Assembly: GCA_028284905.1 (NCBI GenBank)
Contig: JANQQU010000084.1
Span: 62,001 to 126,000 of the forward strand
Direction: 5' to 3'
DNA from: Calditrichia bacterium
GTDB taxonomy: Bacteria > Calditrichota > Calditrichia > RBG-13-44-9 > J075
DNA length: 64,000 nucleotides
Shown piece after piece: positions 41,251 through 47,195 of this stretch; the stretch's first letter is position 1, and each line of letters begins with the position of its first letter. Made by a program: the position numbers and the translations under genes. The notes under the pieces were generated by a model, which did not search any database, was not told the DNA's origin, and saw only the letters and a program-made list of their open reading frames with translations.

Positions 41251-42279
41251 ATGGCACTTTTTGATTTTTTTTCCTCGGATATCGGCATTGATCTCGGCAC
41301 TGCAAATACGCTTATCTATGTAAAAGGTAAAGGTATTGTTGTAAACGAGCCATCAATTGTTGCCTTTGAAGAGCATAGTAATAAGATTGTCGCTGTGGGC
41401 AAGGAAGCGCGTGAAATGCTTGGCCGCACTCATCAGGATATTGTGACTATTCGTCCCCTGAAAGATGGTGTTATCGCAGATTTTGAAGCGACGGAAGCGA
41501 TGATCCGGGAGTTTATCAAAAAAGCAAAAGTAAATCGCATCAGTATCGGAAAAATCGTTGTCTGCGTGCCTTCCGGTGTCACCGAAGTGGAAAAACGGGC
41601 GGTGCGGGATAGTGCGGAAAGAGCCGGGGCCCGCGAAGTGTATCTGGTCGCAGAAGCAATGTCCGCCGCGATTGGTATCGGCCTGGAAATAGACAAACCG
41701 GTCGGTAACATGATTGTCGATATTGGTGGGGGCACCTCGGAGATCGCCGTTATTTCGCTAAGCGGTATCGTTCTGCATACCTCTATCCGTATCGGCGGCG
41801 ACGAAATGAATGAATCGATCGTACAATATTTTAAGAAAAATTACAACTTGCTCATCGGCGAAAAAACCGCTGAAAATTTGAAATGTGAAATTGGTTCTGC
41901 CCTGCCCCTGGAGCAGGAGATCACTACTTCCGTAAAAGGTCGTGATTTGGTCGATGGTATCCCGAAAACGGTCGAAGTGAATTCCGTGGAAATCCGGGAA
42001 GCGCTGAACGAGCCGATTCATACTATCGTCGATACAATAAAAATTACGCTCGAACATACCCCGCCGGAACTTGCTTCTGATATTCTTGATCGCGGCATTA
42101 TCCTCTCCGGCGGAGGCAGTTTGTTACGGCGCCTCGATGATCGCATTGTGCAGGAAACTCGCCTGCCGGTTAATGTCGCCGAAGATGCATTGAGCTGTGT
42201 GGCCCGCGGCACCGGGAAAATTCTCGAGGAATATCCCCGTTTCCAGAAAGTGTTGTTGAAAAGTAATCGCCGCATGTAA
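41251..42279 (+). CDS. mreB: Rod shape-determining protein MreB
   Basis: A 342-residue actin homologue that forms membrane-bound filaments guiding the elongasome. It shows the DIGIDLGTANTLIYVKGKG start, IRPLKDGVIADFEAT, VPSGVTEVEKRAV, the phosphate-2 loop VDIGGGTSEIAVIS and LSGGGSLLRRLD. Family length is normal. It starts the mreB-mreC-mreD-PBP2-rodA shape cluster. A hairpin lies between mreB and mreC. Confidence 0.97.
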   Translation: MALFDFFSSDIGIDLGTANTLIYVKGKGIVVNEPSIVAFEEHSNKIVAVGKEAREMLGRTHQDIVTIRPLKDGVIADFEATEAMIREFIKKAKVNRISIGKIVVCVPSGVTEVEKRAVRDSAERAGAREVYLVAEAMSAAIGIGLEIDKPVGNMIVDIGGGTSEIAVISLSGIVLHTSIRIGGDEMNESIVQYFKKNYNLLIGEKTAENLKCEIGSALPLEQEITTSVKGRDLVDGIPKTVEVNSVEIREALNEPIHTIVDTIKITLEHTPPELASDILDRGIILSGGGSLLRRLDDRIVQETRLPVNVAEDALSCVARGTGKILEEYPRFQKVLLKSNRRM

Positions 42280-43231: not shown

Positions 43232-43703
43232 TTATCGCTATCTCATTTTTTTTCTGTCCGCACTATTTCTGCAAACCAATATTGTGAAATATGTGGAATT
43301 TGCAGGTTGGAAACCGGACCTGCTGTTGATCGCAATTGTGATGTTTGCAATCCATTACGGACAGAATGCTGGCAGTACCGCCGGCTTCTTTACCGGAATG
43401 GTCGTCGATTTTATTAACGGCGGTCTGTTGGGTTTATCTGCATTAAGCAAAAGTATTACCGGATATTTGGCCGGCACCATTCATGGCTATTTTCAGGAAA
43501 AGAGCCGTTTTATTATTACGCTATTTATTTGTGGATTTACCCATGATCTTATCTATATATTTATCAATACCTTGGGGAAGAATATCCTCTGGCAGGTAAT
43601 TATTTTTGTCCATATAATTCCCAATCTTTTCTATACCGCGATAGTTGGATTAGTAATTCATTTCCTTATGGAAAAATGGCTGGAAGAAGATGAGCAATAT
43701 TAA
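43215..43703 (+). CDS. mreD: Rod shape-determining protein MreD (likely CTG start)
   Basis: A small polytopic membrane protein of the elongasome. A GTG at 43284 would give only 139 residues and lose the first helix. The frame stays open upstream and encodes a hydrophobic segment (YRYLIFFLSALFLQTNIV) typical of MreD helix 1, so the true start is earlier. No ATG, GTG or TTG is available; the best candidate is CTG at 43215, 7 nt after GGAG (43204-43207), overlapping the mreC stop by 17 bp (162 residues). The rest shows PDLLLIAIVMFAIHYGQ and four or five helices. Its end overlaps PBP2 by 14 bp. Confidence 0.8.
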   Translation: MGTKINYRYLIFFLSALFLQTNIVKYVEFAGWKPDLLLIAIVMFAIHYGQNAGSTAGFFTGMVVDFINGGLLGLSALSKSITGYLAGTIHGYFQEKSRFIITLFICGFTHDLIYIFINTLGKNILWQVIIFVHIIPNLFYTAIVGLVIHFLMEKWLEEDEQY

Positions 43704-45978
43704 TTTCAGATCCGGCAATCCCCGGAAGCTATTTTACTACGGTATCATCTCCGCGGCTATGCTGCTGTTGCTGGGAGGTTTTTACAATCTGCAAATTCTC
43801 CAGGAATCCGTGTATCGTGGTCAGTCCGAAAAAAACAGTATTAAAAGAGAAACGCGAATTCCGGTGCGCGGGCATATTTATGACCGCAATTGGGGCCGGT
43901 TTCAGCTAACTGGTACTGGTGTGGACAGCCTTCGGCAGGTAGGTGTGCCGTTCCAATTACTCCGAAAATTAATGCCCTTAAAATCCCGGGTGTTCGATAG
44001 CGAAGCTGCTTTTCTGGACTCACTGAGCGTTCGGGGTGGCAAGGCAGAAATTAATCGCTACAAAAATGCCTTCCTGCGCTATTGCCAGATGGGCAAATTA
44101 ATTGTCGACAATCGTCCTTCATTTGCTTTATACCTTGTGCCTGCATTAACAACCCGGGCACAGTTGGATTCCCTCTCATCGATTATTAATATTTCCGTGG
44201 ATCAGATGCGACGCAATTTTCGCCGCTCCCGTCGTTTTCAACCAGTAAAGATTGCGCGGTATGTCGATTATCGCACTTTGGTGAAACTCCAGGAAAACCG
44301 ACTCGATTTTCCCGGACTGGAGTGGAAGGTTGAGCCAAAAAGGCATTACTATTTCAAAAGTAGCTATGCGCACGTTCTCGGCACGCTTGGGGAAATTGGC
44401 GAAGATGAGCTGGGGCGCGACGACAGCTATGAGCCCGGCGATATCGTTGGGAAAAAAGGCATAGAGAAGGTGCTGGATAAAGTACTGCGCGGGGAAAAAG
44501 GCTACCGCTTTGTAAAAATGGATGCCGTCGGTCGTCGCGTCGAAGAAATTGCCTTTCCGGAAAATGCCTTTCCATATCCCGGAAAAGACCTTTATCTGAC
44601 GATTGATGCGCGCCTGCAAAGATATGCCGATTCTCTCTTTGCCGATCGAAATGGTGCGTTTGTCGCTGTGGATGTTCGCAACGGAGAGATTTTGACCCTG
44701 CTTTCGAAGCCGGATTATGACCTCAATCTTTTTGCCGAAGCTGTCGATCCGGAGGTTTGGAAAACCCTGATGTCCGATTCCTTGAAACCATTGTTCGATC
44801 GGGTTACTCAGGCAACATATCCTCCGGGCTCTACCTATAAAATGGTTGCTGCCATTGCCGGATTAAATGAAGGCATTGTATCGCCCAACTGGTCCGTTTT
44901 CTGCCCGGGGTATTTTCGGATCGGGCGCCGGACAATTCGTTGCTGGAATGCTGGTGGACATGGTGAGGTCGATGCGGTTTCCGCCATCCGCGGATCCTGT
45001 AATGTCTACTTTTATAAATTAGGATTAAAGATCGGCATTGATCAATGGGCAGATTATAGCACTCGTTTCCTGTTTGGAAAATTAACCGAAGTAGAATTAA
45101 CAGCAGAAAAACCCGGCCTCGTGCCCAGCAAAAAGTATTACGATCGCATTTATGGAAAAAATGGCTGGACCAAGGGTATACTGGCAAATATTGCAATTGG
45201 CCAGGGAGAACTGCTGGTAACGCCTTTGCAGATGGCTCAGTTTGCGATGATCCTGGCGAACAATGGCACAAACCATCAGCTACATTTGCGTCGTAAACTT
45301 GTCGACAAAATTCCCCGCTATCGGCTGACGGATAAATCTTTCCAACAAATGGCGGAAGAAAATATTTCACCGGAAATATTAAGCGCACTATCTCCTCTAA
45401 AGGATCAGGAATATTCTCATAAATCTCTGATTAAGAAGCTTGATAGTCACATCGGACTGATCGAGAGCAACGAGCTACGCCCAAAGATTTTAGGCAGTGC
45501 CGAAAAGCGGTTTGCTAAGCCGGATACTTTTGCAACACAATCGACCGAAATCACTGGTATTTCACCAGAAGTTTTTGAAATTGTCCGGGAAGGTATGCGC
45601 CAGGTTGTTGCCGGAGGGACCGGTTGGCGGGCCGGGGTGTGGCGAAAAACCGGGGGTGGGAAAACCGGAACGGCCCAAAACCCGCATGGCGATACCCATG
45701 CCTGGTATATTGGTTTTGCCCCTTTTGATAACCCGGAAATTGCCATTGCAGTAATTTTTGAAAATGGCGGTGGCGGTGGCGCTGTAGCAGCCCCGGTAGC
45801 CGGCAAATATCTTCAGCGATATTTTCACTATAAAGGTGAATTTGATTACCGGGAGTACCGGGAATTTCAACGCATCCTTTATGAAAAGCAGAAAGAACAA
45901 GCCTTGCAAGACAGTATTCAGGCAGCGCAGGCAGTGGCTGACTCCTTACAAAACTTAGCACCGAATAATCAGGATTAA
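43690..45978 (+). CDS. mrdA: Penicillin-binding protein 2 (elongasome transpeptidase) with two in-frame insertions
   Basis: A 762-residue class B PBP: transmembrane helix (about 15-35), pedestal domain from RGHIYDRN, and transpeptidase domain with Ser381 in YPPGSTYK, SCN at 436-438 and KTG at 658-660. It cross-links peptidoglycan made by RodA, encoded next. The protein is about 130 residues longer than usual. The excess lies in two blocks, residues 68-134 and 541-607, both exactly 67 residues, alignable to each other; deleting them rejoins RGHIYDRN to GKLIVDNRPS and LRRKLVDK to FAKPDTFATQ, giving a normal 628-residue enzyme. All catalytic motifs are intact. Confidence 0.93.
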   Translation: MSNINFRSGNPRKLFYYGIISAAMLLLLGGFYNLQILQESVYRGQSEKNSIKRETRIPVRGHIYDRNWGRFQLTGTGVDSLRQVGVPFQLLRKLMPLKSRVFDSEAAFLDSLSVRGGKAEINRYKNAFLRYCQMGKLIVDNRPSFALYLVPALTTRAQLDSLSSIINISVDQMRRNFRRSRRFQPVKIARYVDYRTLVKLQENRLDFPGLEWKVEPKRHYYFKSSYAHVLGTLGEIGEDELGRDDSYEPGDIVGKKGIEKVLDKVLRGEKGYRFVKMDAVGRRVEEIAFPENAFPYPGKDLYLTIDARLQRYADSLFADRNGAFVAVDVRNGEILTLLSKPDYDLNLFAEAVDPEVWKTLMSDSLKPLFDRVTQATYPPGSTYKMVAAIAGLNEGIVSPNWSVFCPGYFRIGRRTIRCWNAGGHGEVDAVSAIRGSCNVYFYKLGLKIGIDQWADYSTRFLFGKLTEVELTAEKPGLVPSKKYYDRIYGKNGWTKGILANIAIGQGELLVTPLQMAQFAMILANNGTNHQLHLRRKLVDKIPRYRLTDKSFQQMAEENISPEILSALSPLKDQEYSHKSLIKKLDSHIGLIESNELRPKILGSAEKRFAKPDTFATQSTEITGISPEVFEIVREGMRQVVAGGTGWRAGVWRKTGGGKTGTAQNPHGDTHAWYIGFAPFDNPEIAIAVIFENGGGGGAVAAPVAGKYLQRYFHYKGEFDYREYREFQRILYEKQKEQALQDSIQAAQAVADSLQNLAPNNQD
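43891..44091 (+). repeat. In-frame 201-bp inserted element, copy 1 (within PBP2)
   Basis: Codons 68-134 of PBP2 interrupt the otherwise continuous motif RGHIYDRN / GKLIVDNRPS. The inserted peptide contains RFQLT, then after 18 residues LRKLMPLK. It aligns without gaps to copy 2 at 45310-45510. Boundaries are placed by restoring the host motif and are accurate to a few codons. Confidence 0.65.
45310..45510 (+). repeat. In-frame 201-bp inserted element, copy 2 (within PBP2)
   Basis: Codons 541-607 of PBP2 sit in the linker before ISPEVFEIVREGM, a linker that is short in typical PBP2. The peptide contains RYRLT and, at the same spacing as in copy 1, LSALSPLK. The two copies share Arg, Leu, Thr, Leu, Leu, Pro, Leu, Lys at identical positions in the first 29 residues plus several conservative matches; similarity fades afterwards. 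Confidence 0.6.
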
Positions 45979-45980
45979 CA

Positions 45981-47195
45981 ATGCTCTTAGATCGTATAAA
46001 AAGCCTCGATGGCATTTTGCTGGCCGCAGTATTTGGATTGATGATCTGCGGGCTGGTAGCGCTCTATTCTACATCCCAATCTGGGGGCGGTGCAAATTTT
46101 TTCCTTTCTCAGGCTAGGTGGATTATGCTTGGCACAGTCGTTATGCTGGTTTTCGCTTATCTGCCAAACCGTTTCTTCTATGAGTTAGCCTATCCGATAT
46201 ATATCATTTCAATTTTATTTTTGATTATGGTGCTTTTCTGGGGTAGCACTACCTATGGCGCAACCCGCTGGCTCAGGATCGGTGGCGTCGGCTTTCAGCC
46301 ATCGGAATTTGCAAAAATTGCCACCCTTTTGGCGGTTGCGCGTTATCTATCTGATGAACGCATGGAAATTAACCGTCCAAAGATCTTTTTGATTGCTTCC
46401 GGTTTAATAGCGCTCCCTTTTCTATTGGTCGCTAAGCAGCCGGATTTGGGCACTGGATTGGTGTTCGCGGTAATCACCTTGCCAATCTTTTTTTGGGTAG
46501 GATTAAAAACCAATTACCTGATTTTGATAGTTACACCGGTAATTGCTTTTGCGACCTCCTTTAATATCTATCTCTTTATTATCGTGTTGGCCGCGATCAT
46601 TTATTTCCTATACCGAATTCGTTTTTCAATCTTGTGGGGGATAGGCTATTTGCTCTTAAACATATCCCTTTGGTTTGTTCGCTCGATTTTTTGGAATCAA
46701 TTGAAAGATTATCAGAAAAAGAGAATAACAACATTCTGGAATCCAGAGGCAGATCCCCTGGGGGCTGGTTATCAAATAATACAGTCTAAGGTGGCGATTG
46801 GCTCCGGTGGCTTTTTTGGCAAAGGGTTTTTAGATGGATCGCAAACTCAATTGCGCTTTTTGCCAGAACAACATACGGACTTTATTTTTGCAGTTATTGG
46901 GGAAGAATTTGGATTTGTTGGTGTTGTTATTGTTCTGGCACTATTTACCTGGCTGCTGTTGAGAATTATTCATCTCAGCAATATCTTCCGGAATGAATTC
47001 AGCAGTATTGTTGCTATTGGTGTTGGAACCATGCTGGGATTCCATACTTTTGTAAATATCGGTATGACAATTGGCCTGGCACCGGTTACCGGTTTGCCGT
47101 TGCCTTTTATTAGTTATGGTGGTAGCGCGTTACTTACAAATCTGGTTATGATCGGCTTTTTGCTCAATTTTTACAGGCATCGCTACATTTACTAA
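45981..47195 (+). CDS. rodA: Peptidoglycan glycosyltransferase RodA
   Basis: A 404-residue SEDS-family membrane protein with about ten helices that polymerises lipid II and pairs with PBP2. It shows LVALYSTSQSGGGANF, QPSEFAKIATLLAVARYLS, KQPDLGTGLVFAVI, GAGYQIIQSKVAIGSGGFFGKGF, PEQHTDFIFAVIGEEFG and GLPLPFISYGGSALLTN. It starts 3 bp after the PBP2 stop, so the pair is translationally coupled. Confidence 0.97.
   Translation: MLLDRIKSLDGILLAAVFGLMICGLVALYSTSQSGGGANFFLSQARWIMLGTVVMLVFAYLPNRFFYELAYPIYIISILFLIMVLFWGSTTYGATRWLRIGGVGFQPSEFAKIATLLAVARYLSDERMEINRPKIFLIASGLIALPFLLVAKQPDLGTGLVFAVITLPIFFWVGLKTNYLILIVTPVIAFATSFNIYLFIIVLAAIIYFLYRIRFSILWGIGYLLLNISLWFVRSIFWNQLKDYQKKRITTFWNPEADPLGAGYQIIQSKVAIGSGGFFGKGFLDGSQTQLRFLPEQHTDFIFAVIGEEFGFVGVVIVLALFTWLLLRIIHLSNIFRNEFSSIVAIGVGTMLGFHTFVNIGMTIGLAPVTGLPLPFISYGGSALLTNLVMIGFLLNFYRHRYIY

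Follow-up and report, generated by a model that had tools for sequence, protein, structure and literature searches.

A 66-67-residue insertion shared by PBP2 and unrelated bacterial proteins: a probable invasive protein-coding element

The analysed window, a stretch of 64,000 nucleotides from a Calditrichia bacterium, carries the cell-elongation genes in their standard order, mreB-mreC-mreD-mrdA-rodA. The mrdA gene (43690..45978, plus strand), flanked by mreD and rodA, encodes the class B penicillin-binding protein PBP2, a product of 762 aa in which a domain-model search detected the transpeptidase and dimerisation domains. Two extra blocks interrupt this host protein. Block 1 (43891..44091, plus strand; residues 68-134) is exactly 67 codons long and lies between N67 and G135, splitting the RGxIYDRN/G motif, while block 2 (45316..45513, plus strand; residues 543-608; 66 codons net) occupies the loop between VDKI and the ISPEVFEIVREGM helix, with a placement that is uncertain by ~2 codons owing to alignment ambiguity. 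Neither the mreB-like neighbour (41251..42279, plus strand) nor rodA (45981..47195, plus strand; 404 aa) carries such a block, and the counterpart of rodA in genome G274 contains one. The initial annotation of this DNA had described two homologous insertions of 67 codons each. Both are real and related beyond chance, and the length is exact for block 1; block 2, which had been set at residues 541-607, is one codon shorter and best placed 1-2 residues away, a shift inside the alignment ambiguity.

Both blocks are absent from all 109 PBP2 homologues that were aligned, comprising 29 Calditrichota orthologues (29/29 without either block) and 80 more from many phyla. At the position of block 1, 108 of the 109 homologues have exactly 4 residues, as against 71 in this PBP2, and the surroundings of block 2 measure at most 11 residues in every homologue, as against 75 here. 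A search of 60 genomes gave the same picture for block 1 at the DNA level, with PBP2 residues 1-67 and 135-542 matching directly adjoining DNA in relatives; in the PBP2 gene of G004 the two flanks meet with zero bases between them and no scar.

The resemblance of the two blocks to each other is weak in identity (20-23%) and leaves no trace in DNA similarity or in a BLASTP comparison at default settings; nevertheless, their local BLOSUM62 score of 47 was reached by none of 2000 shuffles. Either block searched alone leads to the same third locus of the own genome, G000:C13:57948-58139 (E 0.0015 and 0.2), which lies inside a gene for a VanZ-like membrane protein. A copy in G006 aligns with block 1 at a score of 107, and one in G279 aligns with block 2 at 90. 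Because these relatives in other genomes exceed the mutual score of 47, the blocks are separate insertions, neither copied from the other, and the earlier suggestion of copying within the gene does not hold. A duplication inside the gene, from either block to the other, is likewise ruled out, the best relatives of each lying elsewhere.

Profiles derived from the blocks, the first from five sequences and later ones from 14, 52 and then 63 copies, retrieved many further copies in unrelated hosts of this genome and its relatives. The five-sequence profile found non-seed copies in the own genome at E values of 1e-8 to 1e-2, in a histidine kinase, a multihaem cytochrome, an nSTAND protein, an iron-sulphur membrane protein and others; an MFS sugar porter, VanZ, a patatin and a CcoG-like FeS protein are further hosts there. 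Copy counts are lower bounds throughout: 17 profile matches in about a dozen genes of the own genome, 15 matches in G003, and 5-6 in each of three more genomes of the same family, with single copies deeper in Calditrichota. Outside the phylum (~345 genomes), 17 matches were found in G274, 10 in G279 and 7 in G143, and six more genomes have one match each at E 2e-5 or better; nearly all the others there give no match and serve as a negative control. The profile is silent in more than 350 of the 385 genomes, and strong matches, including copies outside the seed, reach E values as low as 1e-20. All 83 matches in eight genomes lie within open frames of at least 200 aa, in one orientation and with zero stops; no out-of-frame or intergenic copy was found among them, a count that decayed intergenic copies could escape. 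Aligned copies share no invariant residue.

Searches of Pfam, NCBIfam and PHROGs yielded no model that covers the element, only isolated weak matches involving one member per family, and NCBIfam searched with 52 copies gave nothing meaningful (best E 0.011). The NCBIfam library includes a model of the Rickettsia palindromic elements. No description was found in the open literature (PMC), subscription papers being mostly beyond that search, and the element appears to be previously undescribed.

The hosts are mutually unrelated. They include MFS sugar porters, PiT, NTT and Na/H transporters, ABC permeases, a CAAX protease, LptA-like proteins, MreC, RodA, signal peptidase I, acyl-CoA ligase, RecG and SCO1, as well as CHAT, HEAT and TPR proteins; RecG, acyl-CoA ligase, RodA, MreC, signal peptidase I and ABC permeases are among the hosts encountered in other phyla. 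Because RodA and MreC of G274 (loci L179 and L182) carry the element, genes of the elongasome (PBP2, RodA, MreC) are struck in two phyla. Membrane proteins account for 56 of 84 hosts, compared with 9 of 42 open reading frames of the window, a count in which orthologous hosts are not fully collapsed; this bias may reflect tolerance or purpose.

Empty sites define the insert with some precision. SCO1 of G004 has 66 extra residues that G001, G003, G005, G006 and the own genome lack (no PDB match was obtained for SCO1 at the chosen limit), and VanZ of the own genome has 67 that are missing in G006, G007 and G009. An acyl-CoA ligase has gained 66-67 residues and lost none relative to a solved relative. 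Within one genus, a membrane protein of G005 (contig C81) bears the element and the same gene in G006 (C95) does not; the flanking DNA is nearly identical on both sides, and 71 codons have been added. Measured against empty sites in PBP2, SCO1, VanZ and the G005-G006 pair, the insert length is thus near-constant at 66-67 residues, with 71 once. RecG of G143 has 205 residues adjoining its DEQH motif where Thermotoga RecG (1gm5) has three. These 205 residues of the RecG frame (L187; ORF 1197-3917 of contig C112, minus strand) consist of three consecutive element copies.

Three copies also occur in a protein of known structure, the Cas7-11 effector of Desulfonema magnum (PDB 7zol, chain B, residues 1071-1259), where they lie in the Cas7.4 insertion (profile E 4e-17). 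A structural search of the PDB ranks the same entry first (TM 0.60 on the query), with an E of 2 that is not significant alone. The paper on this structure refers to the parts as insertion subdomains of Cas7.4 and not as a dispersed element.

When block 1 was predicted alone by AF2, with block 2 as its sole aligned relative, it formed a confident fold (pLDDT 91, pTM 0.78) composed of a strand, two helices, further helices and a closing strand. The AF2 model of the full PBP2 gives both blocks the same secondary-structure order; strands 543-546 and 605-607 bracket block 2, and block 1 has low confidence (51-65). The end strands suggest that the termini of the element are neighbours in the predicted fold. 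A structural search of a viral library returned nothing significant. At the DNA level, no palindrome or hairpin is apparent (mean folding z -0.63 over 60 copies), and across 97 copies the ends show no terminal inverted repeats (inverted match 5.24 versus 5.22 after shuffling) and direct repeats at the shuffled level. The own genome has no DNA-level repeat family and only chance-level DNA matches; DNA similarity between copies of one genome was seen only in G279. No associated recombinase was identified. The consensus matched none of 50,697 phage and 72,556 plasmid records in a scan that is insensitive to so variable a piece, two scans of viral contigs of low sensitivity confirmed nothing, and a consensus scan of named genomes gave no confirmed match.

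The youngest copy, that of G005:C81, is strikingly AT-rich (GC3 0.32, host 0.67), and the DNA most closely related to it belongs to G279, another phylum. Over 82 copies, GC3 is slightly below that of the host (p 0.02). The closest relative of most copies lies in another genome; G279 is the exception, with 7 of its 10 copies closest to copies of the same genome. An orthologous copy compared between G005 and G006 has a dN/dS of 0.41, whereas the host, whose dS is similar, has 0.10; the dN of the copy is about four times that of the host. The ratio below 1 shows some selection on the piece, which is far less constrained than its host. Several copies have a nested look, with N-terminal parts followed by C-terminal parts (G279, MreC of G274 and the own-genome nSTAND protein). 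Joining the outer halves raised the score over the larger half alone by 6-15 bits (64.7 versus 50.0, 59.2 versus 46.0, 40.1 versus 33.8 and 39.2 versus 33.4 bits); at L180, joining the outer halves around the supposed inner copy gave no gain. Such arrangements look like elements inserted into elements. A HEAT-repeat-like protein of G279 (L169, positions 2400-3400 of C54) displays three helix-1 parts and then three remaining parts in a nested-doll pattern, and the G279 pattern could alternatively be a duplication in pieces.

Taken together, the findings make it probable that an invasive protein-coding element entered this PBP2 twice and independently, as blocks 1 and 2. The element would be a DNA cassette of ~200 bp encoding a compact strand-helix bundle of 66-67 aa. 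It is present in frame and in one orientation in many unrelated genes of several phyla, orthologues without it exist, and it can be polymorphic within a genus. The initial annotation had proposed a short element inserted in frame and tolerated as surface loops, and its recurrence, the empty orthologues and the shared predicted secondary-structure order all support that proposal. Copies would reach random coding positions chiefly from sources outside the genome; external arrival is suggested mainly by the one recent copy in G005:C81, and the within-genome affinities in G279 speak against it. Only insertions that keep the reading frame, point the right way and fall in a loop would persist, since the piece folds unaided and its end strands return the host chain to its point of exit. 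After arrival, the copy would drift under the relaxed selection that the contrast of 0.41 with 0.10 points to, and its base composition would shift towards that of the host. Several observations weigh against an invasive element: the DNA shows neither a palindrome nor terminal inverted repeats, and no target-site duplication is clear; no own-genome DNA repeat family and no associated recombinase were identified, and the plasmid and phage records and, at low sensitivity, viral contigs gave no copy; random DNA insertion should leave out-of-frame or intergenic copies for a while, and none was seen; and both a dN/dS below 1, which indicates some selection on the piece, and the membrane-protein bias of the hosts, which could mean function, fit less easily. 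More tentatively, and with the balance slightly against it, the conserved unit of such a mobile element could be the protein fold and not the DNA sequence. A piece that folds on its own, its termini side by side, would then move between phyla and enter almost any gene, essential ones included, and its DNA would be free to change while the fold persists.

Another explanation, which we consider unlikely, holds that the piece is a functional interaction or regulatory domain that unrelated proteins acquired repeatedly through ordinary domain shuffling and have retained for some use, possibly at the membrane or cell wall. A dN/dS of 0.41 instead of 1 and the preponderance of membrane hosts, orthologues among which were not fully removed, would agree with it, as would the retention of the same site across genera in MFS, CcoG-like, PiT and NTT transporters. 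Against a retained purpose stand close relatives whose orthologues of the same hosts lack the piece, the lack of even one invariant residue, the fourfold dN, and a range of hosts from RecG to signal peptidase. Evidence from Cas7-11 falls on both sides: parts of the insertion can be regulatory (PMC9935389), and in the D. ishimotonii enzyme deletion of residues 1009-1220, inside the corresponding insertion, left target cleavage almost intact (PMC9629832); the element copies themselves were identified in the D. magnum protein.

A MITE-like remnant of a DNA transposon, mobilised by a transposase acting in trans and with eroded ends, would be a mechanistic sub-case of the invasive element, and it is improbable. 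The discrete length of ~200 bp, the clean empty sites and the nested-looking copies are what it would predict; the end repeats, inverted and direct, that do not rise above the shuffled level in 97 copies are not, and the junction of the recent G005 copy offers at best a weak, ambiguous 9-bp resemblance at both ends, read by eye. That the blocks are unrelated helical loop expansions of PBP2, grouped by chance through composition, is effectively ruled out by the specificity of the profile (E down to 1e-20 with non-seed copies included, over 350 of 385 genomes silent) and the empty sites of PBP2, SCO1 and VanZ with their exact insert lengths, and both blocks independently retrieve the same locus, despite their 20-23% identity and the empty BLASTP result. 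Inteins begin with Cys or Ser, end with Asn followed by Cys, Ser or Thr, and span at least ~130 aa; block 1 starts with W, ends with M before G and has 67 aa, so that an intein is excluded by both ends and length.

Among known systems, the invasive element proposed here most invites comparison with the Rickettsia palindromic elements (RPE; Ogata 2000/2002), which are inserted in frame and tolerated in unrelated genes, housekeeping genes included, and which are ~100-150 bp long, palindromic, recognisable as DNA, described from Rickettsia and present also in intergenic DNA and RNA genes (PMC10969869, PMC4316617). Like RPE, the element lies in frame in unrelated open reading frames for which empty orthologues exist. 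Unlike RPE, it is ~200 bp long and not palindromic, forms no stable hairpin, is conserved as protein only with no within-genome DNA family, crosses phyla and is found inside open frames only. It is not classed as an RPE because the palindrome, the DNA-level family and the presence outside open reading frames all fail, and it may be read, by analogy, as working like RPE yet unrelated to them. PARCEL repeats are a second precedent, being horizontally spread, protein-coding, variable in sequence, amphipathic and patchy across taxa; their 25-aa units are repeated in tandem, have palindromic DNA and occur mostly in proteins of the membrane and the surface (PMC2996958). They are the nearest repeat to the present element in that it is also a horizontally spread, variable, amphipathic and patchy coding unit; it differs as a single unit of 66-67 aa within conserved proteins, mostly with one copy per host and without dyad symmetry. 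Prokaryotic MITEs resemble it as short inserts of non-autonomous DNA able to form in-frame fusions with host open reading frames; in the present element, however, no terminal inverted repeats, no clear target-site duplications and no within-genome DNA family were detected.

The earlier expectation that recurrence would establish a new class of mobile element is accordingly to be narrowed: the element does recur in tens of unrelated genes of several phyla, but in-frame coding elements have a precedent in Rickettsia, and what is new is a family, and a variant, of that known kind of element. Knowledge of selfish in-frame coding elements comes chiefly from Rickettsia, with a few further cases. If the proposed explanation is true, a non-palindromic, foldable element would be present in several free-living phyla, in RecG, RodA, MreC, PBP2 and a CRISPR effector, and "lineage-specific insertion domains" of bacterial proteins would have a general origin. 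Essential proteins would then also offer naturally occurring sites that tolerate insertion, and the way in which new protein segments enter old genes could be tested directly. Recognising the element would in addition aid annotation, because hosts that bear it split profile matches in two.

Several individual loci may be recorded in addition. Five copies lie inside 30 kb on one contig of G003 (L125, L127 and L141; G003:C26:24500-56500), where several hosts resemble phage-tail or contractile-injection baseplate components. A patatin-like membrane protein carries the element at the same site in the own genome (L081, C7:149767) and outside the phylum (L194, G125:C282), which suggests that the host gene was transferred together with the element. 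OppC permeases of G274 (L185) and G143 (L188), two genomes from different families, have it in a similar N-terminal loop, a likeness due to common ancestry or to a favoured site. In PiT phosphate transporters of several phyla (L107, L108, L192, L195 and L196), a C-terminal segment matches, by score, the N-terminal part of the element and may represent an old insertion or a source.
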